Assembly: GCA_963575745.1 (NCBI GenBank) | Contig: CAUYUJ010003625.1 | Location: 184,501-248,500 of the forward strand | Length of the DNA stretch: 64,000 bases | Direction: 5' to 3' | Source of the DNA: Prorocentrum cordatum | Lineage: Eukaryota > Sar > Dinophyceae > Prorocentrales > Prorocentraceae | Part shown: positions 1 through 54,262 of the stretch, piece after piece | Position numbering within the stretch: position 1 is the stretch's first letter | How the letters are laid out: every line of letters begins with the position of its first letter | Notes under the pieces: model-generated | Told to the model about the DNA's origin: nothing | Databases searched by the model: none | What the model saw: only the letters and a program-made list of their open reading frames with translations | Made by a program: the position numbers and the translations under genes

Positions 1-1283
1 TGCAAAATGCCAGGATCTTCGGCAACTGGCTGCTGTTCAGTAATTGCACAACGCCAATGACGGAAGAAATCGCGCTCATTCTTCAGCGCGTTACGTGCTT
101 GCCTGCCTTCGACGTGGCGATGTGAGATGTATTTGATAGATCGGACAATGCTGGATGCAGCGTCGCTCCCCATGGGGGCAGGGATTCCTCTGACGAGGGA
201 TCTCCATCCGTCTGACTCGGGAGCCGCAGGAGCGTCCGGCCTTTCATTGCCTCCGGGGCGATCAGAGCCCGCATCCTCGGCAGTCTTGGCTTCTGTCTCG
301 ATTGCCGCAGCCTTAGCGATGGAGCTCTCGGCCCGCGCAGCCGGGTCCATCCCGGCACTGCCTTGGGCAGGCTGGGAAGTCCCTGGATGAGCTTTAAAAT
401 GCTGTCGCTGTGGCGCCGCCTTGGGCGCGACATCAGCTTGCTGCAGCCTGCGGTCAGCACGCGGCGAACGCTCAACGCTCCACCTCTTGGCCCGAGGAGG
501 GGGCTCGGGCACGCGCAGACTTGGTGACCAAGTCGGCTTACTCAGAGGCGCAGGCCAAGCCTGGGGCTTGCCTGTCGCCGTCTCTGAGCCCGCTGGCTTG
601 GCCGGCGGCTGCGCAGCCGTAGGCGCAGCACCAGAGGGCCTCGCTAACGGCCCCTCCCCAGTAACTTCGCTGCCGGCCGAACGAACAGAAGGGCTGTCAG
701 CTCCAGTATCCCGGCGAGCCACCTTAGCCGGTGGAGGCTTCGGCGCACGTGCCTCTGGACTCGGATGGAATGGTGGCGGAGGCTTCTTCGGCACATCGTC
801 ACCCGACCTGAGTGGGGGTGAATCCTTCATCGGCGCGACGTTCGGCGACTTGGCCGGGGGCGGCGCCATCTTCATGTTAGATGGCGGCGGAGGCTTCTTC
901 GGCACATCGCCCGCTGTCCTAACTGGCGACGGCGCCTCCCTCGGCGGGGGAGGAGGTGCAAGCGCGCTCACGACTGCTGCAGCATCGGGAGGGGGAGGCA
1001 CCTCCTCAGCCACGGCTTTGCCGGGCGAAGACTGGGGCGCTCTCTCGACCCGGGGCGCAGGCTGTCCCAAAGGTGGAGAACTCTCGGCATCCAACGAAAA
1101 AGACGCATCGGACGGCTTTGCCGCCGGCGCCTGCGCCTGAACACCCGTTGACGACTTGGCTTTGGCCTCCTCTTCACTCGCCCCGTTGGCCAGGGCCAGC
1201 TTCTTGGATGCTTCCGAGGCCTCGCCTTGGATTGATCTTAGTGAGCCTGACTCCTTTATCCTGGAGCCATGGCCAAATGTCAT
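1..1283 (-). CDS. Pro/Ala/Lys-rich C-terminal region of element A, partial, runs off the window
   Basis: An open minus-strand frame runs from after a TAG at 1341-1343 to base 1 without a stop. The first ATG is at 1283, giving about 427 codons in the window. It is low complexity: A, P, K, S and E dominate, and the nine-residue block DVPKKPPPP occurs twice, 108 bp apart. The last 60 residues, near base 1, are more normal (R, H, W, F-rich), so a folded domain may begin there. No family is recognisable. Two family-A hairpins (541-588 and around 1113) fall in the frame. The function is unknown; a disordered linker is my inference. Confidence 0.5.
   Translation of the reverse strand, partial: MTFGHGSRIKESGSLRSIQGEASEASKKLALANGASEEEAKAKSSTGVQAQAPAAKPSDASFSLDAESSPPLGQPAPRVERAPQSSPGKAVAEEVPPPPDAAAVVSALAPPPPPREAPSPVRTAGDVPKKPPPPSNMKMAPPPAKSPNVAPMKDSPPLRSGDDVPKKPPPPFHPSPEARAPKPPPAKVARRDTGADSPSVRSAGSEVTGEGPLARPSGAAPTAAQPPAKPAGSETATGKPQAWPAPLSKPTWSPSLRVPEPPPRAKRWSVERSPRADRRLQQADVAPKAAPQRQHFKAHPGTSQPAQGSAGMDPAARAESSIAKAAAIETEAKTAEDAGSDRPGGNERPDAPAAPESDGWRSLVRGIPAPMGSDAASSIVRSIKYISHRHVEGRQARNALKNERDFFRHWRCAITEQQPVAEDPGIL
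541..588. repeat. Family-A hairpin, 20 bp paired, inner stem not of the usual GGC/GCC type
   Basis: Inner stem AAGCC/GGCTT (557-561/565-569), loop TGG, bulged C at 556, next stem CAGGC/GCCTG (551-555/570-574). Then GGCG/CGCC (547-550/576-579) and CTCAGA/TCTGAG (541-546/583-588). It has the same bulge and 3-base loop as the others but different stem bases. Confidence 0.7.
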
Positions 1284-1343
1284 GGGCCTCGCTACGATTC
1301 CCACGGTAAGGACTTCGATCCTTCTGCCAAACGATGGGCCCTA

Positions 1344-3012
1344 AATTTGGGACCCACTGGCTCTGTGCCTTTCGGACTTGGTCCGGGGCAGCCTCTCTTT
1401 CCTTGTCGCGATACCGCTCGACCCCAAGGTCTTGCTCCAAGGGCCGCCCCTTTTGTCTAGCGACATGTTGCAAGAAGGCATCGGCCGGAGTGACATGAAG
1501 TGCTGCGGGAGTCCAATGGTAGAGGCGAAGCTCATATAACACCATCTGGGATGTTTCACTGACAAACTGATCGGGCGAACCCCTGATAATTACAGGCTTC
1601 GCATAGAAAGTGGTCCCCGCAGTTGCCCAGATGCCATCTCCAAAAGTCTCTTCCGCAACAGAATAAACAGCATGCGTGGAAGTATTGTTGGTACAAGGAA
1701 GAGAACCCACACCAACCCGTAGAGAGGATCGGATGTAAGCAACTGATGGCCCTCCAAAATCTAATGGGGAGCGGTCACAGACGTGCCATGAGATTGTCTG
1801 ATCCAGCCTGAGGACGGGTCTTGGACCTCCCCAAGCTTTTCCTCCATTACGCAGAAGGGCAAAGTTAGCTGCACGCAGTGATTGATGCCCGCCCCGTGGG
1901 TCTTCGTCGACAACTTCGCCCGACCCAGGCGATCAGCAACGGTAGCCTTTGGGTCTTCACGTGACCGACCGGCTTAAAATCACAAAGAAACGTGCCCACT
2001 TGGGAACCAAATAATTGGGTTCCAAGACCGGGGTCTTCGTGGACGGGCGCAGCATCTGGAAACCTAACCACGCCTCTCCAAAGGCGTGAACTTGCCGAAC
2101 TCTTTGCTGCGGGCCGGATTTTCCCCTTTCGCCACTAGTGCAACGCGGCCTTCCTCCCCTGGGTAAGCATTCCCAGGCGTCATAGGTCTGTGGAGCTCAC
2201 CGCTCGCCACAGTGAATGGTCGGAGAAAATTATAAATAACTGGTTCCGTGTTCAGCGCACTACTATAGGGCAACTTCTTAACCTTCTGATAAAGCTGCTG
2301 CACCGGCCAATCGTGTTCCCAATCGGCAAGGTTATCGGGGTAGCCCCCTTCTTTGACGCGCTGTGGGAATCTGCGTTTACCGCTGAGCTTGGTTCCTGCC
2401 AACAGGGCATTTCAAGCGGAGAGCTTCCTCCACTGCTTCACCAGGCGCCGTAGCATCCTGCACGCCCTTCGCAGGAGCAAGAGCGGGACCGCGGGACGGC
2501 TGGGCCGCCCGCGCCACAGCAACGTCACCCGAGGCGGCTGGGCCGCTGGGTGCGGCAACAGATGCTGCCTTCTTCAGCTCCTCTACGGCCGGGCGCATAT
2601 GTTGATGATTTTGCACTCCTTCATCTGGCAATCGAAGGCGTTTTCCCTTCGGGGGCATTCCCGGACAAAAGGGCTGGCATCTCGACAACAAATAATGGTT
2701 TTCCTGCCGCGGGAAAAAGTCTGCATGCGCACTCCCTCGCTTAAGAAACTCAATGAACGCAACGGAATAATTGGATCGAGTAGCCCCGCCCCCTGACCCG
2801 TCTTGGACGGCAGGGAACCTAATGGGGTTCAAAGGTTTCGCAAACGGACGAGTGTTAAGCACAGACTTGGGTGCATTGTTTTCTGTGGGGCTCCAGTCTT
2901 GCCAGTGACTAACTAGCTCATTAATGGTAGCCTCTTCCATCGTATATCCGTCGGCTCTTTTCTTCGTCGATGGGTCACCCCCTGAACGGCTGGGCCGCCG
3001 GAGGGTTGTCAA
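1344..3012 (-). pseudogene. Unrecognised element A coding region, frame-broken
   Basis: Several overlapping minus-strand frames (1174-1710, 2064-2402, 2377-3012) have protein-like composition but none starts convincingly; the 2377-3012 frame begins at a TTG. The upper part has ordinary globular composition, including the stretch ATINELVSHWQDWSP. It then passes into an Ala/Pro-rich tail containing AAQPS, where a family-A hairpin (2491-2512) is translated. It follows directly from the 3009-3932 ORF and is probably the same polyprotein after a frameshift. I recognise no domain. Confidence 0.4.
2491..2512. repeat. Family-A hairpin
   Basis: Outer stem GCGGG/CCCGC (2491-2495/2508-2512), bulged A at 2496, inner stem CGGC/GCCG, loop TGG. 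Antisense to the Ala/Pro-rich tail of the 2377-3012 frame. Confidence 0.7.
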
Positions 3013-3932
3013 AATAACAAGACGGCGAGTTTAGCAGCCTTAAACATGTGCTCAGCGCACATCTCGGCCGCCTTAGCTTTCACCATCTGTCCGTCCTTGT
3101 CCACCTTATAGTCATTATGTTCCGACAGAAAATGATAATTATATAAAAAAAATCCCTGTAGGTGCTGCAGTTTGCGATAAACGCAAGCACCGTCAATAAT
3201 CATGATGCGCGGAAGCGTTCCCGCAGCTTTGTAGTTCTCAATCCGACGGTTCATTCTAGCCCGTACAAGGGTGGCAACGTCATCCCACATAGGGTTAACG
3301 CCGCCTCCGGCAGACCTCCAGCACCTGTGGTCCCCGCCAACGTACATGATCTCAATCGCTCCATCAGACGAGCGAAAGACTGCTTCGTCCACAAGGCGTT
3401 CGGCTGCCTCCACCATGACTCGGAGGGCTCCAGCGAATAGGGTTGGATTATCCTGTCGCTTCCCCTCCGCGCCAACTCCAAGCAAGTCACCGGTCGTATC
3501 AGCAATGTCGTTGAAGTTCCAAAATATGTAACGCACCAGCGTACGAATCCCTTTCTGGTAGTACCGGTGCTCTGACCACATGTGGTTCTGTGCCGCTTCC
3601 CGAGGATCGGGAGCCATGCGACCGCTCATGATCTTAGAAGAAGTGTCATGAAAGTGATCTTGCAGAAAGAATTTAGGGACGTGGCTATTCGCGGCTTTCC
3701 CGGATGCATTCCGAAACGCGATCGTGGAATCAGAGACAATATGGGTGAAACAAGACCAAAACTTGCATTGATGATAATCCATCAAGCACAAAGGGCGGAA
3801 CAAGTCCTTAGCAGATTTGCCTGCGGCCATCATGGCCGCAATGTCCTCGCCAACACAAGGAATCCATGAGTGCCCATTCTTGCGGGCAATCTCAGTCATG
3901 GCCTGACACTTCTCAAAGAACGGCAATTCCAT
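3009..3932 (-). CDS. Conserved-looking globular protein of unknown function in the post-pol region of element A
   Basis: This ORF of 307 codons starts at a true ATG (3930-3932). It has balanced composition with many aromatic, His and Cys residues. Distinctive stretches are GHSWIPCVGED near residue 20, FWSCFTHIVSD near 58, YVGGDHRCWRSAGGG near 197 and RIMIIDGACVY near 244, the last two each ending a hydrophobic strand-like run. It overlaps the end of the upstream ORF (3896-5359) in another frame, and the joined reading continues through 3,935, so the ATG may be internal to a longer polyprotein. I do not recognise the family. The absence of low complexity in a region otherwise rich in linkers suggests a real folded domain. 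Confidence 0.5.
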   Translation of the reverse strand: MELPFFEKCQAMTEIARKNGHSWIPCVGEDIAAMMAAGKSAKDLFRPLCLMDYHQCKFWSCFTHIVSDSTIAFRNASGKAANSHVPKFFLQDHFHDTSSKIMSGRMAPDPREAAQNHMWSEHRYYQKGIRTLVRYIFWNFNDIADTTGDLLGVGAEGKRQDNPTLFAGALRVMVEAAERLVDEAVFRSSDGAIEIMYVGGDHRCWRSAGGGVNPMWDDVATLVRARMNRRIENYKAAGTLPRIMIIDGACVYRKLQHLQGFFLYNYHFLSEHNDYKVDKDGQMVKAKAAEMCAEHMFKAAKLAVLLF

Positions 3933-5359
3933 GCCCAGGCCATCAACCGAGGGTCTGTAATATCAACATAAAGCTGAATAATTTCGGACACTCGAGAGTC
4001 CCACCCACGCAGTGGCGGCTCGGGGCTCGCAGCAAACTCTCTCTTCAACCAATGGTAGTCGAGGACGTTCCAGGGGCCCGGCCCAAGATAGGGCGGGTCA
4101 TTTCCCTCGTTATCCACTGCCGTCGATCCCGCATCCGGGGGCCCACCTCCGCCGCCGCCCCAAAGGGGGTTACCGGAAGGAGGAGGGTTTCCAATGGGAG
4201 AGCCGCCTGGGCCCGACGGGGCACCTCCGACACCGGCTGGGCCGGGAGGAGAGCCGCCGCCCGCCCCGCCATCGGCTCGGCCGGGCTGGGCAGCCCGCTT
4301 CGAGGCTGACCCAGCGGATGATCCGCCGGCCGCCTGCCGACCAGCTCCAGGGTTGTCCAAAGGCTTATGTGGGTCAGACCTAGCCAAAGGATGCGTCATG
4401 GCGACATTCGCTTGGTAGCTTGCCGAACCGACTGGGTCGGTCGACGTCTCCGCTCCCAAGCGTGGCCTTTTCGGCGCCTTGATGGGGCCCTCCTCTATAT
4501 AGTCAGGAGGGCCCTCAGAGGGCGCCTCAAGGCGTCGATGTTCAGGATCTCCGGGCAAAGACGGCCGCTCTCCAGCAGCGACTGGGTCGTGCTGGCCAGC
4601 CTCAGCCTCTGCGTCTGGCGGGGTGCGTGGCTTGTCAGTCGAACCAGCACCGTCTTCAAGGCCATCACTCGCGAGCCATTCCTTGAAGTCGCATGGGCGC
4701 GCCCACCAAGGTGCTGCCTTGCGCCCGGCCACCGCCTGCTGAGGGGAAGACTCAAAACAATTGGCCCTGGCTGAATCGGCGAGAGCCTCCTGAACAACAT
4801 GCACGTGCAAGTAAGGTCTGCCCTTGGCAACAGGCAGGGCATACGTTGTACCCCAGCCGTCCCCAGTGGCTTTGCCACGGGGCGGTGCATGCGGCGAAGG
4901 GCTCCAAATGTTCAACCACAAAACGGGAGCACCTTCTGTCTTGCTGCCCCTCACTGGGACGCTCACAAAATCACCGCACATCGTCCTCCGCCGAATGGCT
5001 GGGCCAACGGCGGGGCCCACGACCTCTCCCTTTTCGAGGGTTCGGGCAGGACGTCGAGTCTCCCTCGGTTCATTCGTGTACAATCTGCAGACCAGCTTCG
5101 CCATTTCATCAGGGTATGACTGAAAGTAAGACTCCTCAGGAATCTGATCAATTCCGGGGGGGGCACAATCAAAACGGCACGTTGCCATTCTGTCGAATGT
5201 CGTCCAATGGACGCCCCACGGATCTTGTGAGACACGAGAAAATAGACGCTCGAAGATCGTTTGGGGGGTGTCGGCTAAATCTGCCTTCGGCGCGGTAACG
5301 ACGCGGTCGTCCCGCATGTATAATACATGCGTATCCACATCGCGAAGCGCCAACTCCAT
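3896..5359 (-). CDS. Unknown element A protein: globular N-terminus and long Gly/Pro-rich C-terminus
   Basis: 487 codons with an ATG at 5357-5359. Residues 1-200 are globular (for example TPQTIFERLFSRVSQDPWGVHW and a later WLNIWSPSPHAPP segment). Residues 220-440 are a disordered Gly/Pro/Ala/Asp-rich linker containing AAQPGR, which is a translated family-A hairpin. A short globular tail (NVLDYHWLKREF) leads into the 3009-3932 ORF. A hairpin with a 4-bp outer and 5-bp inner stem lies at 4861-4882. It follows the methyltransferase-like ORF and overlaps it at 5169-5359. Function not recognised. Confidence 0.45.
   Translation of the reverse strand: MELALRDVDTHVLYMRDDRVVTAPKADLADTPQTIFERLFSRVSQDPWGVHWTTFDRMATCRFDCAPPGIDQIPEESYFQSYPDEMAKLVCRLYTNEPRETRRPARTLEKGEVVGPAVGPAIRRRTMCGDFVSVPVRGSKTEGAPVLWLNIWSPSPHAPPRGKATGDGWGTTYALPVAKGRPYLHVHVVQEALADSARANCFESSPQQAVAGRKAAPWWARPCDFKEWLASDGLEDGAGSTDKPRTPPDAEAEAGQHDPVAAGERPSLPGDPEHRRLEAPSEGPPDYIEEGPIKAPKRPRLGAETSTDPVGSASYQANVAMTHPLARSDPHKPLDNPGAGRQAAGGSSAGSASKRAAQPGRADGGAGGGSPPGPAGVGGAPSGPGGSPIGNPPPSGNPLWGGGGGGPPDAGSTAVDNEGNDPPYLGPGPWNVLDYHWLKREFAASPEPPLRGWDSRVSEIIQLYVDITDPRLMAWAWNCRSLRSVRP
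4861..4882. repeat. Family-A hairpin
   Basis: Outer stem CCCC/GGGG (4861-4864/4879-4882), bulged A at 4865, inner stem GTGGC/GCCAC, loop TTT. Confidence 0.7.
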
Positions 5360-5660
5360 CCCCTTTCGCGCACGAACTTAATATTCCCGGCATAACTAGG
5401 TATGGACCATTCGGTCTTGTCAGGAAAACAACGAAAGATGGGTCGCTCATCGCGGGGTCTATAATTCCCCGTGAAGAGGCAGCTGCCCTCTTGGCAGGCT
5501 TGTTGTCATCAATAGCAGCGGAGGCAGCTCTCTTGCGAGCTGCAATCTCTTCTGCGTGAATCTCAACGCCACCCTCCATTTCGACGTCAACATTCATCAT
5601 GACATCACTTGAACTAGAGGGGTCAGCCGTCTCCCCGGCCGGCTGGGCCGGAGGGGCGAC

Positions 5661-5688
5661 GCCCCCACTCGGCTGGGCCGATGGGGGC
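5661..5688. repeat. Family-A hairpin, 12 bp stem with one bulge
   Basis: Outer stem GCCCCCA/TGGGGGC (5661-5667/5682-5688), bulged C at 5668, inner stem TCGGC/GCCGA (5669-5673/5677-5681), loop TGG. A related hairpin with inner stem CCGGC/GCCGG and outer CCCC/GGGG lies directly before it at about 5,633-5,656. Confidence 0.75.
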
Positions 5689-5824
5689 GCCTTTCGAATT
5701 GGATTGGAAGGGGCCTTTCCTTTAGGCCAAATCGGAGGTTCTTCCTCCTCAGGTAAATCAGGGGCGAGTTCATGCATAATGTCATCCGAGCAAACCGAAG
5801 TCACATCCTCCACCGACGGCTTTG

Positions 5825-5843
5825 CCGCTGGGGGGCCCAGCGG
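5825..5843. repeat. Hairpin with 8-bp perfect stem and 3-base loop
   Basis: Arms CCGCTGGG/CCCAGCGG (5825-5832/5836-5843) around loop GGG. It overlaps a GGCTTTGCC core at about 5,818-5,826. A possible relative of family A. Confidence 0.55.
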
Positions 5844-7048
5844 TTGACGCATGGGTTTGGCCGATGACCAATCGGGCGCGCGGGGGCCGCGGCAGGCGAG
5901 GCCCGCGCGGCCGCAGCGAGGCGGCAGCGCGGTCCGAGGGGGGGCCGGCCGCTGAGCAGCCCGCGCAAGCTCTGGAGACAAAACGGCAGCAGCACATATG
6001 GAATCAGAGGAGGGGGCGGGACGACGACGAGACGACAACATGCGCTCCGCGGCACGAGCGACAACAATGTGAACCTGTTTGGCGAAGGCATCCGTGTAAT
6101 CTTCCGCTGACTTACACTCCCTTCCTCTGGCCTCAACATGCTCATGCGTGCCGTCACACTTGCGCTCAAGTCCCTCTGTCACGTCGTGAGATGTGGATGC
6201 GATCGTCCAGGGCTTCTTCATGAAATTACCCTTGCTGTCCCTCAATCCATGCGCGCACCCATGCACAGCCGTTTTGACAAACTCAAGCTCTCTCATGAAC
6301 TCTTTCACCTGGGGATCCCTCCAATAATTACACTGAGTCGGCCATTCAAGGCAAACAGTACCCCCCGCTTTGTGCGCAGCACGGGCAATCCCGCGGAAAT
6401 TCCAAAACAGATGTCTGAAGTCTGTCCTAATACCTCGAAGCCTACGCATCGCTCTCTGGTTCCCAGTGCAAGAAATTATGGGCTTCGTCCAAGCATTGCC
6501 AGGGGGAACCTCCTGTACAGGGCATAGAGCCCCATAACGTTATGCGTTTGCCTTTGAACGTCTTTATGTCATTCAGAGCCGACCTTCGTCCCTTATCGGC
6601 TCTCATATCTTCCTTCTCCGTGTGCCGTATTTCCTTACACGAATTATCGACAAAATCCTTGGGGTTTCCGATCCTGCTCTGTGGGCGCCATCGCTGGAAT
6701 CGCCATTCGAATTTTGCTGAAAAGGGGTGATGATATCTATTATCTTCGTCGCGCCAACTATCCGCACGGTCAATAGTCAAACCATTTCGGGTATTGATTG
6801 CATCGGTACGACGCCGATCATCTAACCTATCCGGGTCAACTGGGCAATCGGTATTTGCGGGCGTAAACGTGACAAGTCTGGGAACGAAGTGTCATCGTTT
6901 GAGACTCTGTCCGCGTTGTGTCCATTGATCCCTCCTATCCTGGAAATTAGCAGCAGCAGCAGCAGGCGTAAGGTGAGGAAGAAGAAAATTATAACCGAGC
7001 AAGTATTCCTCTTGCTCGGTGTTAACTGGCTCAAAGCTCGACCGTTCT

Positions 7049-7528
7049 TCACATCTCTTTTGAGAGATTTGATGTGCCAGATTCACTTTCGCTGTCGGTC
7101 ATGTCAAACATCGCTGTCATCTCAGCGTCCTCCATTGACCTGGGTTTATCGGAGCTTCTCCTGGAACCTTCCTCCCTCGTAACAGGTGTAATTGTACTTG
7201 CTTCCACGGCTTGGCCGGGCGCATTCGCCGCCACGGCTTGGCCGGGGACGTTCGCCACCACGGCTTGACCGGGGGCGGCCTCGGTAGCAGCCGGGCGCTG
7301 GGCGCCGTCGGGTGCCGCTGGGATATCAATTGGTTTTGAAGAATGCGCAGCGGGCTTACCCTTGTTGGGGCGTTTCTTTTTCTTGTTCATCTTCTTGCTA
7401 GGTGCAGCAGCTCTTCTCCGCAATGCCGAACTCGGACCTAAGCGGGGCTTCAGAATCCCCCCGGGTTCCAGGGGGGGGCGTCTGAAAACGTCGAATCTAA
7501 ATGGTATCGATACCGCTTGGCGGTCCAA
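7049..7528 (-). CDS. Lys/Ala/Pro-rich linker after RNase H with a 9-residue tandem repeat
   Basis: 159 codons, low complexity. A basic stretch rich in K and N (near residue 50) is followed by three copies of a nine-residue repeat of the type PGQAV-(V/A/E)-A-N-(V/A). These are encoded by the 27-bp repeats at 7204-7284, each holding a family-A hairpin core. The C-terminus is acidic and Ser-rich. It overlaps the end of the RNase H reading region and bridges to the methyltransferase-like domain. No function can be assigned. Confidence 0.4.
   Translation of the reverse strand: MDRQAVSIPFRFDVFRRPPLEPGGILKPRLGPSSALRRRAAAPSKKMNKKKKRPNKGKPAAHSSKPIDIPAAPDGAQRPAATEAAPGQAVVANVPGQAVAANAPGQAVEASTITPVTREEGSRRSSDKPRSMEDAEMTAMFDMTDSESESGTSNLSKEM
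7204..7284. repeat. Three 27-bp tandem repeats, each beginning with a family-A hairpin core
   Basis: CCACGGCTTG recurs at 7204, 7231 and 7258, exactly 27 bp apart. In the third copy GGCC is changed to GACC, which breaks the stem. On the minus strand they encode three nine-residue repeats. Confidence 0.75.
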
Positions 7529-8533
7529 AACGTAGGAGTCACAACGTTGACGGGATATAATACCTTAACCCAGGCCAAAGGGCATGTAAACCTCTTCGTT
7601 CCAGTTCCAATGTCGACAGCCTCATTTTGAGCCCGCCCGTACTGGAGCTCAACGATACCTCGAGAAAAATTCCTCAGACACTGCGGCACCGTCAATGCGA
7701 TGAGTTCGCGGTAGGTGCATTAGCTTCATGGGCCCTCCGGCTTTAATGACCTTGCAAACTGGCCGGTTGTCTTCTAAGAACAAACAACGTATCTGTCGTC
7801 CGAGCAGTATTTCTCATAGTGGAAGGGCTGCCAGCAGCTCTTTTCGCAGGGCGAGGTCGGCAGCCGCAATTTCAGCCTCAAGAGTATTATGGGAGACGCA
7901 TGTCTGTCCCTGAGATCCCATAGATTGCCCAGTCCTGGTGTATGGGCCACAAATTGCTTGATAACTGGCACCCGCGCTCCTATGTGTTCGGGTGTCACTG
8001 GCCAGATCCGCATCATAGTATTGCTTCAACAAGACATCCCCCATTCTGTCGCCTACCCATAAAGACATTCGGTAGTGAGAGGTACACTTGATGTAACAAA
8101 TGAGGCGGAAAAGGTCCATGTCTTGTTGCTCTGCCCACTTGGTAATGCAACTGGCCGCGTGGCAAACGGCACGGAGCAGGTCGCATCGAGCCACTCTCGC
8201 ACCGTAAAGGGTCTTCATCAAGACTTTCGCCGCGATTGGCTGGAGCACTCCCGACTGGGTCGGTGGCTCCGGATCATTGGGGCTGGCCGCTGCGGATTCA
8301 AGGCCGTGCACAACGACTTCTTGATCTGGGGGCCCTACGTCAACTTTGATGTGTAACGCTGAGGCTATTGCCTCCTCTGCAGGAGAGCAAACTTCACCTC
8401 TAGGGAAGCCTTGGCCGTCCTCGAGGTCGGCAAGTTCAGGGCCAAACGGGGTACCTGCAGCGGGATATGCAGCTGGGTCAGCATCTGTGAGTTGTGCGTG
8501 TAAAGTGACACAGGATTCGAAGAATTCAATCAT
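7450..8533 (-). pseudogene. Ty1/copia-type RNase H of element A
   Basis: The frame 7814-8533 holds the RT-RNase H connection (LMKTLYGARVARCDLLRAVC) and the RNase H core, with the acidic strand YYDADLASD followed by SAGASYQA and then NTLEAEIAAADLALRKE, the usual copia E-A-E helix. After a frameshift near 7,800 the reading continues with LFLEDNRPV, a MxLxHLPRTHR-like segment, and in the 7450-7695 frame VELQYGRAQNEAVDI. This matches the conserved end of copia RNase H (D-N, RTHxI, ADI-TK). The expected catalytic acidic residues are visible in DAD, E and D-N. It degrades the RNA strand during reverse transcription. At least one frameshift disables it. Confidence 0.75.
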
Positions 8534-8554
8534 GTCGTACTCGATAACTCTGGC

Positions 8555-9450
8555 CTATTTGGGTTCTCTCGGTTGGTATGGCTCGAGCGGCTGGGCCGTC
8601 GAGTCACCCCCCGTTTCCCCCTCATCGCTCTCGCCTGGGACGGAAGCGTTCTTCTTGGCTTTAGGGGGCGGTGGGCCCAAAGTCGTGGGCAACTGACCTT
8701 GCCACTCTATTAACTGCGTAGACAGTCGATGTTCACAACCCAAATATCGTCCGACCGCGGTCGGAGGATCGATCTCTATGCCTTTCGAGCAATTGGGAGA
8801 TGGGGTTTGTAACAACATCCAACCTTGAGCTAGCTTGTCTGCAGGGCCAGCCAGCTCAAAATCGTCAGCGTAAACTGCCAAGAATATCTGCAGCTCTTTA
8901 TGGAAATAGCAGTTGCGCCAGCCGTACCCCCTGAAACAGGGTGTCAGTATAAAGACAAAATCAACGGGCATTCGGGATTGCGCATATGCGACCATGACTC
9001 GGGCCACTCATCGCGGGGTAGAAACACCCACGTCGGGGTGCCACCCAATTTTAACTGAGTATAGGCCTGACTGGCGTCGGCTTGTTCGATACTGTGGCCT
9101 TCAAAGAGCCCGTAGGTATCAGCTGCTTTGCTGGCCTGCATTGTAGCGGGACTGCTGGGCAGTTCTTGAAATAAAGCAACGTCCTGATGCTGATCTCTCA
9201 CACTCGAGGCCATCGAAAACTACCCGACCTTAAATATTTACGACCTTAGTGTCCGAGCGGCAATTCTGAATGCTTTTCGACGAGGATTGCGAACAGACGA
9301 CCGAAGTGGGCAGTCTGTCCTTCGAGCTCTGCAACAACATCGGAATATTATATGACGCCTTCCTCGCCCCATGTGCCGGTGTCTCGCAATATGTTCCATT
9401 CCTTTCCTAGAGCAGCCTGGGCATCTCGATTAGCCTGGGCCTCAACTTTG
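8555..9450 (-). pseudogene. Ty1/copia-type reverse transcriptase of element A
   Basis: The domain begins in the 9348-10031 frame with KEWNILRDTGTW, the usual start of copia RT. It passes a broken stretch (AHFGRLFAILVEKHSELPLGH, a stop, then a frameshift at about 9,220-9,245). The 8944-9213 frame continues with QADASQAYTQ, motif A with its Asp codon at 9076-9078, and FLPRDEWPESW. The 8555-9007 frame contains AVYADDFELAG, motif C, with YADD at 8861-8872, and then GRYLGCEH. Both catalytic aspartate motifs are intact while the frame is not. The C-terminal tail is a linker containing AQP from a hairpin at 8580-8605. Confidence 0.8.
8580..8605. repeat. Family-A hairpin, 11 bp paired
   Basis: Outer stem GGCTCG/CGAGTC with one G-T pair (8580-8585/8600-8605), bulged A at 8586, inner stem GCGGC/GCCGT, loop TGG (8592-8594). 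It lies in the linker just after RT. Confidence 0.7.
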
Positions 9451-9973
9451 GAAACGGAGCGAGCTACAGCGGCATCAATCCTTGCATGCTGCCATTCACT
9501 GGGAAGTTGAAAAGGCTCGTCAACAATTGAAATGAGATCAGTAAAAAGATTGTATAAGTAATCCAAATCAAATCTTCCCTTTTCACGGTGACTAGGCATT
9601 GGGGCCGTGCCGGGTTGCAGCGGCATTCGAGGCGCGCTTCGCCGCGACGCGGCGGCCGCCGGGCTCAAGGTCAGACTTGCCTCTTGTGTCACCTCAGACT
9701 CCACATCGGATAACGGGCCCCTGCTGGCTGGGCCGGAGGGATCACCGTCACGTGCCATGGCGCCACCGCGCCAAGCTTGCTTCCACCATATATCCTCATC
9801 ATCCGAAAGATAGTCGTCGGAGTCGTCCTCCTCAGAGGGTTCAGTGGCTACAGCTGCGGCTTGGCCGCCCTGCTCCGCCTGGCGTCGGAATCGCTCAATA
9901 ACCCACGGCGCGGCTCTTCTTGCCCTTGGATGCGTCGCAAAGTATGCAGCGCCCTCCTCAGAGAGTGGACGAA

Positions 9974-9997
9974 CCGCGGGTGGCTGGGCCACTGCGG
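9974..9997. repeat. Family-A hairpin, 10 bp paired
   Basis: Outer stem CCGCG/TGCGG with one G-T pair (9974-9978/9993-9997), bulged G at 9979, inner stem GTGGC/GCCAC, loop TGG. Confidence 0.7.
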
Positions 9998-10436
9998 GCT
10001 CGGGCGGAGTCGGCGGATCTTCCACGTCCAAGCCTATGTCGCGCAGGAGGGCAGGACAAGGACCGGGATCGTCTATGCCAAAGAATCCTCTCTTTTCGGC
10101 CTTCTATCGCTCGACTGCTTGTCGGCGCTGAGTCTGACTCATGTTGAACCAGCGTCCAGGACAAATTCCAGGACTGGTGGATTCAAGCAATTTCTGCAGC
10201 CATTGAGCACCGCGCTTAGGATCTGGATCGGCGACCCACATACGGGCCACGGGAACGTAGTCGGGATCATATTAAAGCACAACCCGTACGCTGCACGTCT
10301 TGCGACGACCTGTCAAGGGGAGCTTTTGAGTTAACTCTTCTTTCGTTAGGCCGACGACAATACGCCTGTCCTCATAGTATTCCATCGTATCAAGGTTCTG
10401 GGTCGCGCGAGCAAGGAGCTGCCCTTTCCCGGGAAC

Positions 10437-10464
10437 TTTCTCACGCGGCTTGGCCGCTGAGAAG
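10437..10464. repeat. Family-A hairpin with an A/T-rich outer stem
   Basis: Outer stem TTTCTCA/TGAGAAG (10437-10443/10458-10464, last pair G-T), bulged C at 10444, inner stem GCGGC/GCCGC, loop TTG. The A/T-rich outer stem rules out simple GC bias as the cause of pairing. Confidence 0.75.
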
Positions 10465-10800
10465 CTAGATTGTCGACCCAAACGACACTCAATCTGTGCG
10501 AGAACTAACTTCTGATCTCTATCTTCTTCGCCTGGATGAGAGTCTCGCCGCGGGCCACGGCCGTCGATCACCGCGGGCTCGTCATCCACGCATAACCCCC
10601 CCGGACCGTCATCATCATCGGAATCGGCCTCGGAGTCCGGTGGTGGAGCGCCCTCGCCTCCTCGAGGAGGCGGTGGCATAATTATGGCGGGATCTTCTGC
10701 ACAAAACGGATGGACCGATTGTGCCCCTGCCCCCTGCCCCGAACCGTCTGGGACGGCCGCGGCCTCGCCGGCTGGTAGGATCGCAACGAAGCGCACTTCG

Positions 10801-12190
10801 GGCACCATCTGCATAACAATGCTCTAACTTCTCTCCCGGGGCTTTAAGGTTTACTAAAAAGTTACAAACATGAACCGCAGACTTGTCGCGTGCACCCTGA
10901 GCGGCGACGAAATCAGTTGCTCGGTCGCGAAAAGTCACGCACGCGGTCTCATCGTGGAGCCCCCGCGAGAGTTCATCCATCGCAAACCAATGATCCATCG
11001 TCGTCAGGTGTCCAAACGAGGTGGGGTTAGCGCATGGGCGGGGAACCTTCAGCCCTTTGTTGCGCGCTTTGCGCTGCTGTCGTCTGATAGCTTTGGCCCA
11101 ATTGCATACTGAGCAATACGGGTTCTTGGGAGTATGAGTTAGATGGCGCGGCAGGGAGGCTGCGGCACTTTTGAGCCGCTCGGCAAAGGAACCCGACACC
11201 TCAACCTCTGCATCGTCTCGGTCTGGTTCTGACGGTGCGTCGATGTCGACTAGGTCGACACCGTCAGCTTCTCCAACTTCACCCTCCTCGGGCCCGGGGG
11301 CCGCGTCGCGCGCATTGGAGTCCAGCCCTCGATCCATGTCGTAGGGGAGATATCCTAGGACCCCGCGCCAGCAAGAGCTCTTACACGCGGCTGCGCAGGC
11401 CACGGCTTTGCCGGGCTGCTCGTCGGTCTGACCAACGGCTTGGCCGTGGCAGGGCAAAGTCGAAAGACATTTGGAGGCAGCAACGCAGGTCGGTGTCCGA
11501 TTCCAACCGCTTTCGCTAGCCTTACGAGGCGAATCGTAAAAATAAATGATGGTATCCGCAGATTCTAATGAGGACGGAAAAACGGGCGCGAGCTCAGTCG
11601 GCCGACCGTCAACGCGGCCGTGGTTGCCAATCAACTCGTGTGTATGCAAGTCTATGGTTACGCGAGTCTGAACAGCGTGGGCCGGAGGGCCCCCCGCCGA
11701 TTCCACATCGCCCAGACATGCCTTGGCGCCTGGCGTCACGCAACACCACCGCTCGGGAGGTTCACCCTCCCCAGCGGCAACCGCGCACATCCACAGACCC
11801 AGCGCCGCTTTGCCTGAAAGGGTCAAGTATGGGATCTTGCCCTCAACGACCAGGTCCACTCTTTGACCTTTGGGCAACAAAATGCAGGGCCTTCGGCCTG
11901 CTGGCCAGAAGAAACTAAAGCCGCGATCCATGCACCGCTCTCCTACCGAGATCACGCACGGGGTCTCCGGCATGACCAGAGCGTTAAAACTACCACCCTT
12001 AAAATTAGGGCATGCGATGCGACCTGAAACGAGGGCTTGCGATTCTCCCCCGGCAGTATTCAGAATGATCGATTGCGGAAGCTTTCGAATCAGTCTCATT
12101 GCGCCTGCACTCTTAATATCACTTTCCGCGACGAGGTTCTACCCGCACCCTGCATCAATTATAAAGCTCAGCGCAGCCAAGATACGCAGC
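10801..12190 (-). pseudogene. Aspartic protease and truncated integrase of element A
   Basis: Reading 12,190 to 10,801 in one frame gives FIIDAGCG, the protease active-site D-x-G type motif with its Asp codon at 12154-12156. An in-frame TAG (12139-12141) follows, then an open frame with TPCVISVGERC, FFWPAGRRPCILLP and GKIPYL, typical of the C-terminal half of dinoflagellate copia proteases. After an acidic linker come HLTHTPKNPYCSVCNWAKA (the H-H-C-C zinc module before integrase) and TMDHWFAMDEL with the first catalytic Asp. CYADGARS holds the second Asp near 10,805. Sequence resembling the rest of the core, including the catalytic Glu, is absent: linker follows at once. Two hairpins at 11.4 kb interrupt the protease-integrase spacer. 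Confidence 0.7.
11432..11449. repeat. Family-A hairpin, short outer stem
   Basis: Outer CC/GG, bulged A at 11434, inner stem ACGGC/GCCGT, loop TTG. A further core, CGGC/GCCG with loop TTT, lies at 11403-11413. Confidence 0.55.
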
Positions 12191-12844
12191 GTCTTTGTCT
12201 GCGCATCCCGCAGCGGCTGCGCCGCGTGGGCCCTCTCCCCCCCCCCCCCCCTCAGTCCTCAACCAAAGGTGCCAGACGTCATCTTGTAGGTCTGACGCCC
12301 TGGTCAGGGCCTCCGCCGCAGATGCTCTCCACTGGGTGGACAACTGCTGGCGCATTTTAGCTGGGAACCTCAACCTATCTTCGCCACTCGAGGGCAACTC
12401 TTTTAGGTCGTGGCGGCGCGCCTTCCTACAAGTGCTGGCGGGCTCCGCAGTCGAGGGGTAAAATCGGACGCGGAATTTGCACCGATCCTTCGTCTGCGAT
12501 CGAATGCAACTCTTGTTAGGGGACTCGCCCCAATACATCTTGATAGCGCCCCGAGAAAGAGGACGCAGGAACATGGCGCAAATATTGACAAGATTTCCAA
12601 CTTGCCGCCTGCACTCGTGGAAGGGCTCTCCACTGGAAGGGTATGTTTCAACTCCTCCTTTTGTATTTACAGAGGCCTTTGGAAAATGAGGGCCGGCCTG
12701 CCCCTGCCCAGGGAGGCCCCGAACTAACGGGGCGGGGCGCGCTATCGCGCCCAAGCTGACTGGGTCAGGCGACTCCTCCCTGCCCCCCCCGATTTCGGCT
12801 TGACCGACGCGGGCGTCGCCGCGTCCGTCTAGCGAGGATGGCAA
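12155..12844 (-). pseudogene. Spacer between nucleocapsid and protease in element A
   Basis: A 229-codon frame rich in Arg, Gly, Glu and Ala links the CCCH nucleocapsid ORF to the protease. Only short stretches look globular, for example the part containing MRQQLSTQWRASAAEALT. Its end overlaps the protease active-site region in a different frame, so a frameshift near 12,190 separates them. No domain recognised. Confidence 0.35.
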
Positions 12845-12878
12845 GAAAGAGTACCCGTAACAAAATTATACCAATCAG

Positions 12879-13799
12879 TCATCCTGCACTGACGGCTGGG
12901 CCGCCAGCGCGGAGCCAGCGTCGCGGATGGTTGGGCGTGGTCTGAGCGAACCGACGCTCCTCTCCACGCGTGCACTTTCCCGTTTCCTTGAAAGAGCGAC
13001 ATATCATGTCTTTACCTCTGCCTCTGCCCTTGTTCTTGTCTCCATCTTCCCTTCGTGTCTCCGAACTGGCGCTGGAGGCCCTAGAGCCACCGCCGCCCGC
13101 AGACGAGGCGACATTTGCGGCAGCGGCATTGGCCTGTTTGATTGCGCGCTCATGCTTTAGAGTCTGACCTGCATTAAACTTCGCTGGTTCATACTTGTCT
13201 CGCTTGAGCTTTTCTGCGTCGGTCAAGGCTCTGCGTTCCCTGTGACAACCGTCTGGAGGTCCACGGCAGTTCTTGGGGCCCCGTGAGTAAGGGTAACACG
13301 GCATCTTGCTCTGTTTTCCACTTGAACGATCGGATTGGCTCCTGTTCCGTTGCTGCGCACCCTTTCTACGGCTACCCGTCGGGGTCGGCGACCGGCTCTG
13401 AGCCTTTCGGCCTCCGCCTTTTGGTCTCTCAGACCTCCCTCTGGGATTCGAATTCGGAGCCGGGGCGGCATTCGACTTAGCCCCCGCACCCGGCTGGGCC
13501 GGTGCGGCGGCCTTGGGCTTCTTGTGATTAAGCGGGCATCCCTGACCTGCATGCGGGCAAGTGTCTCCCTTGCGTACAAACTTGCACGTCGTCTCGCCCT
13601 TGGTCGATCCGCTCTGCATAACATCCGTGGATTTCCCGAGACGAGCTGCGACTTCTGCCGCAGCGGCTTTGCCGCTGGCACCTCGACGATTGTCATGGCC
13701 GTTGCCTCCACCACCGCCTAACCGCGTTTGTCGGGCACGTTGGTTCAAAGTACCCTCATGCATACTGATGTTCCATTCTTCCTTCTCACGCAGCATCAT
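12879..13799 (-). CDS. Nucleocapsid-like protein with CCCH zinc fingers, Ser/Arg/Gly-rich
   Basis: 306 codons. A first CCCH finger (CKFVRKGDTCPHAGQGCPLNH, spacing C-x8-C-x6-C-x3-H) lies near residue 72. A Cys-rich segment (CYPYSRGPKNCRGPPDGC) lies near 165. A degenerate third finger (CRSFKETGKCTRGEE) near 267 lacks the expected third Cys. Between them are SR/RG-rich basic tracts, as in RNA-binding nucleocapsids. Dinoflagellate copia elements use CCCH fingers where other elements use CCHC knuckles. It lies just after the Gag core and probably binds genomic RNA. Family-A hairpins at 13484-13507 and 13661-13677 are translated inside it. Confidence 0.6.
   Translation of the reverse strand: MMLREKEEWNISMHEGTLNQRARQTRLGGGGGNGHDNRRGASGKAAAAEVAARLGKSTDVMQSGSTKGETTCKFVRKGDTCPHAGQGCPLNHKKPKAAAPAQPGAGAKSNAAPAPNSNPRGRSERPKGGGRKAQSRSPTPTGSRRKGAQQRNRSQSDRSSGKQSKMPCYPYSRGPKNCRGPPDGCHRERRALTDAEKLKRDKYEPAKFNAGQTLKHERAIKQANAAAANVASSAGGGGSRASSASSETRREDGDKNKGRGRGKDMICRSFKETGKCTRGEERRFAQTTPNHPRRWLRAGGPAVSAG
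13484..13507. repeat. Family-A hairpin, 10 bp paired
   Basis: Outer stem CCGCA/TGCGG (13484-13488/13503-13507), bulged C at 13489, inner stem CCGGC/GCCGG, loop TGG (13495-13497). It lies within the nucleocapsid ORF. Confidence 0.75.
13661..13677. repeat. Family-A hairpin, unbulged 7-bp stem
   Basis: Arms CAGCGGC/GCCGCTG around loop TTT, within the nucleocapsid ORF. Confidence 0.6.
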
Positions 13800-13841
13800 C
13801 CATTCGATTTGAGATATGAGCCATTCATGGGTTCTTACGCC

Positions 13842-14648: not shown

Positions 14649-15620
14649 AATCTCGGTACTTGGCGCGGAACTATGATCGCCCCCACCCTTTTCTTGTCCT
14701 GCCCCGCCTGGCTGCGCGCCCGCCGGCGCATGGCCTTTATCTCCACCAGGCGGCCGGGCCGCTAGCGGTTTTAATGGCCCGCCCTTGGTGACAGGGTGGC
14801 ATGGCGGTCATGTAATCGATGGCACCTGTCAAGTCCGCGTTGATGGGCACGCCGTTCCCGGAGGTACCAAGCTTGGCCGGGCCTTCGGCAACCGGGCCAG
14901 GAACAGTATAATGGGGTTGCATGGTGGGTCTCACAGGCGTCCTCTGCGAAAGCAAAGGCATATCAAATGGACTGAACTTGGGCATCTTATCCAACTCTTT
15001 CTCAATATATAGAAAAGTTTCCAATCCAATTGATCTCGTCATCTCTTTCGTTCTTTCGACTATTGCCGCTTCTCGGTCGGCAATTAGCAGCGAATGCTGC
15101 ACGTTTGGCCCTTTCTCTTTCAAGGGCTCGTTGATGATAGCTCTGAGCTCCATCAACTCTTTCTCCGATGCAGCTGCGCGTGCCAGAGCCCCATCCATCC
15201 CCCGACTGCTGGCAACTGGCGTTTCTGAGCTCATTCTGATCTGCTCCTCAGCTTGCTCCTTTATCCGCTGTGCGTTAAGTTTGTCAGCACTCAATCCATC
15301 AAGGGGCTTCTGCTGTCGGGCCCGAAAATTATGATCAGCACTGCGTCTTTGCCATTGCTCGCCCCGCTCCTCCTGGTCTGCTGGCAAACTCTTTCGTTGA
15401 GCACATGTGGAACACCGTCTGGCGTTTGCATTGAAGTGGTCTTTGCAGCTCGGCAATCCACAAGTGGCGCAGTCTCCAATTTTCGGATTCGGGCAGATCG
15501 AGTAACTCTCTTCGTCAGCCCATCTCGCTGGCTGCGGCTGCAGCGCAGCCCTTACTCGCAGCATTGGCGGCATCCCGCCCCCCATGGTCGCCAAGCCAGG
15601 CTGGGCCTGCGAGGGCGTTG

Positions 15621-15644
15621 CGCCGGACGGCTGGGCCGCCGGCG
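15621..15644. repeat. Family-A hairpin, 10 bp paired
   Basis: Outer stem CGCCGG/CCGGCG (15621-15626/15639-15644), bulged A at 15627, inner stem CGGC/GCCG, loop TGG. Confidence 0.7.
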
Positions 15645-15660
15645 ACGGTCGTCTACTCGC

Positions 15661-15682
15661 CCCAGCTGGCTTAGCCAGTGGG
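15661..15682. repeat. Family-A hairpin, 9 bp paired
   Basis: Outer stem CCCA/TGGG (15661-15664/15679-15682), bulged G at 15665, inner stem CTGGC/GCCAG, loop TTA. Only 16 bp from the previous hairpin. Confidence 0.7.
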
Positions 15683-16561
15683 CACGCAGTGTCGCCTAAC
15701 TGCACACACTGAAGAGATGCTCTGGCATTTTCATGTAACTTGAACTCTTCTCGATACTGATTGTTCTGATCAACTATCGTCGCAGCTGCAATCTGGGCAT
15801 TGGCCACTTCCAGCCTGGCAGTGTGAAGTTGTTTTTGGAGCTCCTGTTTTCCATGTTTCTGCCCTGGCTGTGGCGGCCCTCTCTCCTTCTATTCTCGCCA
15901 CCGCAACAGCGGCGGATGCGGTCTTGGCATCGACAGACTGGCTGATCGCTGTCATTTCGGCCTGTCGTTCGGAGGACATCGTCTCAGCAATTCTGTTCTC
16001 GGCTTCTTCTGCCGCGCGCTGCTGGGCAGCCGCGGTTTGATGGGGCATTCGTTCCAGTAGCTCTTGTTCCCGCTTGCTGGCAGCCTGGGCCAGAGCGAGT
16101 CTGTCAGCCTCGAACTTCCTCCGAACGCCCTCAATAACTGCATTCAATTCTTCTCGGCCCAGTCGGGCCTGCTCGGCCCTCTCGGCTTCAAGGACCACAA
16201 TTTCTTGCTGGGTCTTGGCCTCGACAAATCTAGCCCGGTCCTGCATGGCTTGCATGAGAAGGTACGAGCAGTTATGTTCTTCCATCTGGAAGCAATCCTC
16301 ACGCAACCATTGATTGCCACAGTTGGGACACACATCATAGCAACTTCCACACACTGGGCGCTTACAGGGCCCTTCCTGTTTGCGGGCTTTCCCCGGGCAT
16401 CTGCTTTCCGCCGGGGGCGGGCAGTTGGGGCCCCGGTTCCAGCGCACCTCGCGCATGGATACTGTACTGTTGCTCCTCGAAGCGGATCGGGCACCAGATC
16501 GCGGCATCTTGGGCCTTCCCCTGCTCGAAGCAGGTGATCGAGGACGAACGTGCGCACCCTC

Positions 16562-16578
16562 AGGTGGCTTGGCCACCT
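16562..16578. repeat. Family-A hairpin, unbulged 7-bp stem
   Basis: Arms AGGTGGC/GCCACCT around loop TTG (16569-16571). Confidence 0.65.
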
Positions 16579-17114
16579 CTCGAAGCTCCTCATCCCGTTC
16601 GTCTTGTCTAACCAACTCAATTAGCGAAGCCGGGGGGTTGAGCATTTCATCATCCTCAACTGCAGCGGGCGTCGACGGTTGCCAATCGCCTGTGGCGACG
16701 GCAGTTCGATAGAACCCTTCATGAAGCGGGGAATCATTCAAGTCGTAGTCATCATTCCTGTGCTTTTTGGGTTGAGGAGCGGGAGTTCGCCCCGTGATCT
16801 CGCGGACATGCCTCGCATGAGTCTGGTGCCCTATTTCAACCTCGACCGCCTGGGGCGGCAGGTCACTTATCACGGTATCTGAGTCTGATTATGCAAACGC
16901 TTTCCCAAGGGCCTCCAAGTGATCATGGTCAATCGCATCCTGCCCAGGGGATGATATCCCGTCCTGGACGGGGTGATCAGCAACAATTATCGACGACAGA
17001 TCTCGGCTTAGTGACACTTGATAATTGTCGTATGTATTATATTTTCCATGGAGTTTACGTCGTCTTCGTCATCGACCTGTTCGTCACTATCTTGGCCCGT
17101 TTGTCCGTTCAAGG

Positions 17115-17681
17115 CTATCGGGATGGGGTGCGTCCCTTGAGCGTTCCCCCATCCGTCTGGGACGGTGGGGCACACGCCGCCGGACTCCTCAGCTTCCCAC
17201 TGGCTTGGCCAGCGGCCAGCACGATAGTCCGCATGGCAATCGGGCTGGAATGTACTGTCTCAGAGGATTCGGCAACCCCAGATGAAAAGGCTCCTCGTCT
17301 GACATTTGCTGTTGTGCCATCCCGCCTCGTCGGGTCTGGGGTCTGTTCACGATCACCGATCGGAATTCGAGAGGGAGAATCATCCATTGACAAATCTATA
17401 ACTTCTCCCCTACCCCTTCCACGAGAAATCCGGGTGGTATTAGAAGAAGCGGGAAGGCGGCCCCTCCCCGGGCCGCTGTCCTGATGTTATTGCCCGTCGC
17501 GTTGTACAACTTGCGATCCGACGGGCAATCCGGCTGTCTCATCACAGCTCATCCCTGTTGCGACTCGGTCGCGGGTTTCGGCTGATAACCAATCTTTCCT
17601 CTGAGGACCGGGGTGAGATGCCAAAGGAACTAAGGTCTCATGTTGACTCTGCTCAGTGGTAGAGGATACGGGATGAGACAT
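17115..17681 (-). pseudogene. Probable N-terminus of the element A polyprotein
   Basis: Frame 17487-17681 starts at an ATG (MSHPVSSTTEQ) at 17681. After a stop near 17,487 the coding-like composition continues (RGRGRGEVIDLSMDDSPSR, then the 17115-17393 frame). It is Ser/Thr/Pro/Arg-rich and disordered, as Gag N-termini often are. Upstream of 17,700 the coding character stops, so this is the best candidate start of the element's polyprotein. A family-A hairpin (17200-17212) falls inside it. Confidence 0.35.
17200..17212. repeat. Family-A hairpin core
   Basis: Arms CTGGC/GCCAG around loop TTG; CC/GG continue outside an A-C mismatch. Confidence 0.5.
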
Positions 17682-39544: not shown

Positions 39545-39595
39545 AGTAAAAAAAAAAAAAAAAAATAAAAAAAAAGAAAAAAAAAAAAAAAAAAA

Positions 39596-53107: not shown

Positions 53108-53116
53108 GCGTTACTG

Positions 53117-53473: not shown

Positions 53474-53566
53474 AAATACGCCGGTGATAAAATGCGTATG
53501 TGATGTTAATCGAAATGGCTGTACACAACGCTGGAAAGCAAAGGTTGTGTGACCCGCTCTATATGT

Positions 53567-54238: not shown

Positions 54239-54262
54239 GTAAGCTTCCTCTTCTCACTCTGA

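Follow-up and report, generated by a model that had tools for sequence, protein, structure and literature searches.

In single-stranded RNA (ssRNA) phages of the MS2 type, packaging signals are dispersed as many stem-loops over the coding genome, which have features of loop and bulge in common and stems of variable sequence; the motif also requires that the loop end in A and that one arm contain an unpaired base (PMC6281560, in part). Recognition by shape is also described for constitutive decay elements (CDE), triloop hairpins bound by Roquin with no preference for stem sequence and with a C-G closing pair in the solved structures. Their loops are of the type YRN, best YAU, and they are located in 3' untranslated regions (3'UTRs) with one to two copies per mRNA in the high-confidence set (PMC6294493, in part). 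Among long terminal repeat (LTR) retrotransposons, the RNA of Ty1 and Ty3 is recognised by Gag through packaging and dimerisation signals, but even in yeast cis-recognition and RNA packaging of Ty1 are not clearly defined, and scattered sites are only called likely contributors in Ty1 and Ty3 (PMC4974528, in part). The locus compared with these systems here lies in a window (the whole stretch of DNA analysed, 64,000 nucleotides on contig C3625) from the dinoflagellate Prorocentrum cordatum. In it, a copia-like retroelement, element A, carries an array of small bulged triloop hairpins throughout its coding sequence. The analysis supports selection on the structure of these hairpins and makes it rather probable that they serve as dispersed recognition sites on the RNA of the element.

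The genome of P. cordatum has a size of 4.15 Gb and a G+C content of 59.7% (PMC10666404, in part). The sequence searched here comprised 4,128,499,153 bases in 21,875 contigs, and the window has a G+C content of about 56%, as taken from 4-kb values.

Plan, number and strand of the hairpins

On the coding (minus) strand of element A, nearly all hairpins have one orientation, with CCA, CAA, AAA or TAA as loop and the bulge on the 3' arm. The plan on the RNA strand consists of an outer stem of 4-8 bp, one unpaired base in the 3' arm, an inner stem of 4-5 bp closed by C-G and a triloop ending in A (CCA, CAA, AAA and UAA in element A; UCA additionally in related families). An ungapped alignment of 21 hairpins of 24 nt (A1) shows standard pairs in 93.8% of its pair cells, changes on both sides in 9 of 10 pairs and CCA as the commonest of the 21 loops; since the hairpins had been chosen for pairing, these pairing figures are a description of the architecture and not a proof. 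The original prediction, which was made from the letters of the window, had quoted five outer-arm examples and one hairpin with a changed inner stem at 551, and all six were found in place. Its estimate of at least 15 copies referred to real hairpins and understated their number, which comes to roughly 37 if the weak ones, about one third, are included (Table 1).

The excess over chance is large and confined to one strand. Triloop hairpins closed by C-G with TGG, TTG, TTT or TTA loops (in the letters of the strand read) and stems of at least 4 bp occur 47 times on the plus strand of window 1-17400 and twice on the minus strand, compared to means of 1.5 (maximum 6) and 1.2 (maximum 5) in 300 dinucleotide shuffles of the same stretch; a slightly wider loop set gave 49 versus 2. 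Hairpins which strictly feature an outer stem beyond a single bulge in the plus-strand 5' arm number 13 (shuffle mean 0.36, maximum 2), whereas the single bulge on the opposite arm was found once (shuffle mean 0.32, maximum 3). The strict scan of 1-17300 (triloop, inner and outer stems of at least 4 bp each) likewise gave 13 hairpins whose plus-strand 5' arm has one unpaired base, one with such a base on the 3' arm, and one for each arm with two unpaired bases. With wobbles allowed, 32 scored hairpins were obtained on the plus strand, 26 of them 5'-bulged, and none on the minus strand. The remaining 46.6 kb of the window contain 3 and 4 hairpins of the C-G triloop class on the two strands and one hairpin in each of the bulged classes. 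The shuffled sequences, which the original prediction had proposed as a control, do not match the number of bulged hairpins, and chance is rejected as origin of the excess in both classes.

A search with a covariance model had also been proposed in the original prediction. The model R1, built from A1 and giving rough E-values, had 38 matches at E<=0.5 in the window, 37 of them on the minus (sense) strand within 1-17.3 kb (21 training hairpins and 16 outside training) and one on the plus strand. Nothing was matched at this threshold in window 17.4-64 kb or in ten 4-kb pieces of other contigs (40 kb, host genes therein not identified). No covariance model of Rfam 15 matched window 1-17400 at E<=1. 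The iron-responsive element and the Smaug site were dropped as candidates since, on the sense strand, the loops fit neither in size nor in sequence.

Most hairpins are situated inside open reading frames (ORFs) with an excess of third-position variation. Their loops fall into differing codon phases (8, 11 and 1 among the 20 phasable of 26 listed hairpins), and therefore no single peptide is under conservation. Together with the constraint on third positions reported below, this rejects peptide conservation as the cause of the hairpins.

Variation among copies and related families

A 160-base piece of element A gave 40 scored matches in the genome (265 candidates). From these loci, 20 copies of 10 kb were fetched, of which L028 was dropped as it aligns identically to L027, leaving 19. 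The fetched copies span roughly window 600-10450, so that the comparison between copies covers the left part of element A, and their identity to the window is about 78-90% in the main stretches. At window 6686, copies of element A hold about 100 extra bases without counterpart in the window copy, and the alignment breaks. Diversity between copies peaks at third codon positions in all eight minus-strand ORF blocks tested; therefore, the frames were translated in the active lineage.

Diversity was calculated pairwise among the copies and compared with a base- and CpG-matched expectation and with 2000 circular shifts, the window being left out because the choice of hairpins would otherwise bias the values. 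Stem diversity reached 0.598 of expectation, and 0 of 2000 shifts were as low. Loop diversity was 0.749 of expectation (63/2000 shifts as low) and diversity of the single-base bulge 2.1 times expectation (7 sites, two of them invariant; 41/2000 shifts as high). Other hairpins in the same region had a diversity of 0.1065, with 0.1203 expected. Resolved by codon position, stem diversity was 0.035, 0.054 and 0.079 at positions 1, 2 and 3, compared to expected values of 0.082, 0.089 and 0.148. As it is low even at third codon positions, coding constraint is no explanation. Selection on the hairpin structure, one of the two causes suggested by the original prediction, is thus supported, with stems kept beyond coding need and the bulge left free.

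Nine hairpin regions were displayed across the copies covering them, with 3 to 20 rows per region. Every covering copy has the hairpins in register, alongside substitutions, some of which break pairs, and small deletions next to the hairpins. No empty site was seen in these regions; hence, there was none to inspect for flanking duplications.

Further evidence comes from related families. In a genome search with the homologous integrase P0012, 98 matches were scored among 3,974 candidates, and three relatives were read, the 4.1-kb pieces L047 and L048 and the 560-base piece L049. L047 and L048 are 87% identical to each other and 70-71% to element A, while L049 shows 85% identity to L047 and 73% to element A. 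L047 and L048 together have 14 R1 matches at E<=0.5, every one of them sense, and an antisense match first appears at E=0.58. The two matches at E<0.001 in L049 are likewise both sense, and the reverse of one scores E=0.32. For five homologous 24-nt hairpins (10738, 10439, 9974, 9718 and 8581), 82-94% of the tabulated cells pair in register, compared to 23-64% with partners slid by one or two positions. Pairs changed on both sides number three at 8581 and two at 10439, and occur once among the slid versions. The inner stem at 8581 is CGGC/GCCG in element A, CATC/GATG in L047 and CGTC/GACG in L048, which is compensatory, and one outer pair, A-T in the window, is G-C in both relatives. At 10439, A-U is replaced by G-C in the element A copy L015 and C-G by U-A in L022 and L027, with U-G in L049. 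A similar series at 7512 reads ACCGC/GCGGT in element A, GCCGC/GCGGC in L047 and GCCGC/GCGGT in L048. Loops of the relatives are UCA, UAA and CCA, the final A being retained. Window 7204-7246 contains two near-tandem hairpin-bearing units (7204/7231; protein PGQAVVANVPGQAVAANAPGQAVEAS); the extra unit is without counterpart in L047 and L048, and therefore some hairpins may spread via local duplication.

Coding context, candidate reader and competing explanations

Domain evidence for element A is weak, yet it is consistent with a copia-type element. RVT_2 of Pfam matches the relative L047 at E=1.5e-4, and the homologous proteins P0012 and P0009 match rve (E=0.029) and gag-asp_proteas (E=0.0091), none of which reaches the curated cut-off. 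Among the ORFs scanned in the window itself, none matched an integrase or reverse transcriptase of Pfam. PDB gave no match at E<=0.01 to the longest open frame of L048, and viral contigs searched with P0012 contained no relative. The coding sequence of element A is broken into overlapping reading frames. At overlapping places of L047 (1327-1391) and L048 (823-1207, both on the sense strand) the ORF changes frame, so that the change may be common to both and may reflect a frameshift, an intron or decay. The seven proteins matching the 3' ORF of element A (3012-3962), P0001-P0007, carry the label Pyramimonas sp., a green alga, in EukProt; contamination or a mislabelled source is possible.

A second element of the window, element B, features a hairpin family of its own with a GNNA tetraloop. 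Hairpins of this type with a 5-bp stem occur ten times on one strand, not at all on the other and nowhere else in the window, and three of the ten perfect ones have altered stems which are still paired. In all seven imperfect GCNGG...CCNGC hairpins, a G in the middle of the 5' arm gives a G-U pair in sense RNA, and A-C was found in 0/7. Among GNNA-loop stems of any sequence, the sense strand of the window has 9 G-U and 8 A-C, most of the latter unrelated to the motif of element B, and seven other loci (L040-L046) have 27 G-U versus 8 A-C in sum. These loci bear element B hairpins too, L046 only with shorter stems, and L045 contains one compensated stem, GCGGG/CCCGC. The G-U pairs and GNNA loops point to folding in sense RNA. 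The repeated tracts RGNL and AGAPA/AGQPA in the protein, at first sight peptide repeats, proved to be the encoded hairpin core.

While the structure of the element A hairpins is established by the comparisons above, their function has to be inferred from it. The explanation which we consider rather probable is that of dispersed, packaging-type recognition hairpins on the RNA of element A, read by an RNA-binding protein encoded by the element. Its genomic or messenger RNA would bear some 37 copies, a part of them weak, of one structural motif across the coding sequence. The hairpins would fold in the RNA and be recognised by shape, i.e., by triloop, C-G closing pair and bulge, most likely by the putative RNA-binding Gag-like product with CCCH-type fingers. 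By analogy with ssRNA phages, tens of binding sites per RNA might enable the element to package, assemble or self-recognise its own RNA. The different hairpin of element B suggests a separate code for each element family. More tentatively, and as a possibility that we would not yet expect to hold, large protist retrotransposons may each repeat a family-specific hairpin shape (bulged triloop in A, GNNA tetraloop in B) tens of times through their reading frames, which would enable the protein of a family to distinguish its RNA from the thousands of related elements that the same 4-Gb genome contains.

Selected sense-RNA structures might also be read by a host factor instead of the Gag of the element, or provide general RNA architecture (stability, nuclear export, translation pacing, avoidance of splicing or silencing). 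This is unlikely, although it deserves serious attention, as it rests on the same structural evidence (R1 matches, constraint, third positions, relatives and homologous pairing) and Roquin exemplifies a host protein reading triloop hairpins with free stem sequence (PMC6294493, in part). The number of copies per element exceeds the need of a single regulatory site, however, and with a single host factor for both elements, the different hairpin that element B uses within this genome would be less expected. The lack of R1 matches in the 40 kb from other contigs, a small sample, points in the same direction. An action of the structure in single-stranded DNA, be it first-strand complementary DNA or a displaced strand, appears improbable. 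The fixed strand would agree with it, the plus strand is the first that reverse transcription makes, C-G-closed T-N-G loops would also fold as DNA, and one count of wobble changes in element A slightly favours the plus strand (112 antisense-compatible versus 95 sense-compatible). A second, non-independent count favours the sense strand (203 versus 145), and the G-U pairs in all seven imperfect hairpins of element B, with loops that are GNNA on that strand, argue against DNA as well.

The other cause suggested by the original prediction, a mobile hairpin or a copying mechanism that makes inverted repeats, is not supported. Rickettsia palindromic elements, to which the hairpins had been likened, are longer mobile inserts, translated palindromes inside reading frames. 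The hairpin at 9850 and one unit at 7204/7231, which are without counterpart in L047 and L048, indicate gain or loss over long times. Within the element A family, in contrast, the absence of empty sites from the displayed regions and the fixed orientation (47 versus 2) leave mobile hairpins unsupported, and the stems do not repeat a single sequence but vary from place to place. A Rickettsia-like insertion of palindromes is thus highly improbable, and the likeness fails on insertion polymorphism, of which none was seen. The original prediction had regarded as damaging an alignment in which all copies share the hairpins at ordinary substitution rates and without insertion polymorphism; all covering copies indeed have them without such polymorphism, which speaks against mobility, but the rates in the stems are not ordinary. 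Only marginally less improbable is a mutational mechanism, such as template switching or self-priming in reverse transcription, which creates inverted repeats without selection. The inverted repeats do sit in a reverse-transcribed element with a fixed strand, yet the fixed 24-nt plan with its one-arm bulge and constrained loop, the low stem diversity at third positions and the compensatory changes at homologous positions in other families are left unexplained by it. In the regions displayed, no newly perfected palindromes were noticed, a systematic search for such not having been made.

Several observations weigh against recognition of folded sense RNA by a Gag-like protein. Some R1 matches in the relatives are positional homologues of model members and not independent of them. 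The outer pair at 8581 that is G-C in L047 and L048 is an A-C mismatch in the 18 other displayed copies of element A, mismatches occur at 10439 in each of L011, L019, L022 and L047, an inner one at 9974 in L048 and A-C at 9718 in L047, where six copies of element A have a common inner mismatch. At three of the five homologous hairpins no pair is changed on both sides, and double changes within the copies of element A (25 versus 20.1 expected, 15 of them complementary) are barely above independence, a weak excess which fits copies that are mostly dead. Local folding, in which 26/36 sense and 23/36 antisense hairpins form with a probability of at least 0.5 (5887-5910 left out), neither confirms every hairpin nor discriminates the strand, which wobble types leave unsettled in element A. 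Moreover, the Gag assignment depends on sub-threshold Pfam matches, and the packaging signals of Ty1 and Ty3 are located near the RNA ends and are not dispersed (PMC4974528, in part).

Apart from the two elements, the window contains an approximately 90-bp G+C-rich tandem array with diverged copies (46396-50850), and further arrays are located at 38552-40278 (89 bp), 36053-36526 (73 bp) and 18198-20773.

Table 1. Features of elements A and B in window coordinates. E, E-value of R1 unless stated otherwise; training, hairpin used to build R1.
Feature	Position	Strand	Basis and remarks
Element A, copia-like retroelement family	1..17400	-	left end beyond window; 20 fetched copies, one duplicate; third-position variation excess; weak domain evidence
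ORF, CCCH-type zinc-finger-like repeats; candidate RNA-binding part of Gag-like protein	12882..13841	-	Pfam zf-CCCH E=0.0057, below curated cut-off; two more CCCH-like stretches read by eye
A-type hairpin	352..375	-	E=0.0013, training
A-type hairpin, altered inner stem AAGCC/GGCTT	551..574	-	E=0.0029, training
A-type hairpin	587..610	-	E=0.0058, training
A-type hairpin	1106..1129	-	E=0.0057, training
A-type hairpin	2490..2513	-	E=5.4e-05, training; in register in 19/19 rows displayed
A-type hairpin	2527..2551	-	E=0.013, not in training
A-type hairpin, 2-nt bulge	2791..2815	-	E=0.1, not in training
A-type hairpin	2980..3003	-	E=0.00028, training
A-type hairpin, weak	4225..4251	-	E=0.23, not in training
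A-type hairpin	4422..4445	-	E=0.00057, training
A-type hairpin	4572..4595	-	E=0.00047, training
A-type hairpin	4860..4883	-	E=0.0015, training
A-type hairpin	4989..5012	-	E=0.00011, training
A-type hairpin	5633..5656	-	E=5.3e-05, training; not formed in local fold
A-type hairpin, 8-bp outer stem (5660-5689)	5663..5686	-	E=1.5e-05, training
A-type hairpin, weak	5810..5833	-	E=0.21, not in training
A-type hairpin, weak	5887..5910	-	E=0.33, not in training
A-type hairpin	8581..8604	-	E=0.00028, training; homologous in L047 and L048, compensatory stem changes
A-type hairpin	9718..9741	-	E=0.0027, not in training; homologous in L047 and L048
A-type hairpin	9850..9873	-	E=0.023, not in training; not formed at homologous place in L047, L048
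A-type hairpin	9974..9997	-	E=0.00021, training; homologous in L047 and L048
A-type hairpin	10439..10462	-	E=0.00016, training; homologous in L047, L048, L049
A-type hairpin	10738..10761	-	E=0.019, not in training; homologous in L047 and L049
A-type hairpin, weak	11428..11452	-	E=0.12, not in training
A-type hairpin, weak	12207..12230	-	E=0.07, not in training
A-type hairpin	12887..12909	-	E=0.083, not in training
A-type hairpin	13484..13507	-	E=1.5e-05, training
A-type hairpin, weak	13656..13680	-	E=0.42, not in training
A-type hairpin, weak	14744..14767	-	E=0.12, not in training
A-type hairpin, weak	15591..15614	-	E=0.14, not in training
A-type hairpin	15621..15644	-	E=2.7e-05, training
A-type hairpin	15660..15683	-	E=0.0019, training; not formed in local fold
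A-type hairpin	16012..16035	-	E=0.00013, training
A-type hairpin	16680..16703	-	E=0.0022, training
A-type hairpin	16840..16862	-	E=0.1, not in training
A-type hairpin	17147..17170	-	E=7.4e-05, training
A-type hairpin	17194..17217	-	E=0.096, not in training
Element B; hairpin family GC[A/G]GG-GNNA-CCTGC of its own, including variants in the stem, sense strand	51282..63260	-	17 sites: 10 perfect, 7 with one G-U
Element B hairpins 1-9, first bases (high ends)	63260, 61999, 61844, 61016, 60510, 60454, 60397, 59640, 59278	-	
Element B hairpins 10-17, first bases (high ends)	58820, 57426, 56964, 56168, 55963, 54862, 53291, 51295	-	

Comparison with described systems

In the open-licence literature on RNA structure and packaging of dinoflagellate, copia and Ty1 retrotransposons, no description of such hairpins was found among the papers listed, as judged by titles and abstract openings, and the words "hairpin" and "retrotransposon" are absent from the main text of the P. 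cordatum genome paper (PMC10666404, in part). If its function is as proposed, the array would represent dispersed RNA recognition hairpins in a setting for which the literature searched holds no description. This would mean a second layer of information over the gag/pol coding sequence, which shapes the protein (AQP, GKA and GQA tracts), and the hairpins would offer a means to classify dinoflagellate elements. Moreover, cis-recognition and packaging in LTR retrotransposons become testable via a motif of 24 nt.

Recognition of the RNA by Gag is what the proposal for element A has in common with Ty1 and Ty3. Compared to Rickettsia palindromic elements, element A is distinguished by the absence of insertion polymorphism from the regions displayed and by stem sequences that are not common to the hairpins. 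The CDE bound by Roquin resemble the hairpins of element A in the triloop read by shape, the free stem sequence and the C-G closing pair. CAA and TAA loops would fit YRN, but the commonest loop of element A, CCA, does not; in addition, its hairpins are bulged, lie mostly within ORFs instead of 3'UTRs and reach about 37 per element. The dispersed packaging signals of MS2-type phages share with element A the multiple stem-loops over coding sequence (here 37 sense-strand R1 matches in 17.3 kb), the common features of loop and bulge and the variable stems. Differing from their (x)xYA loop and unpaired A in the 5' arm, element A has a triloop and a bulge of variable base in the 3' arm of the RNA, and it is a eukaryotic retroelement. 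Dispersed packaging signals of RNA viruses are variations on a common motif and difficult to demonstrate with sequence as the only evidence; the sites of element A are numerous, follow one plan on a fixed strand, show some covariation and belong to a retroelement with many sequenced copies.

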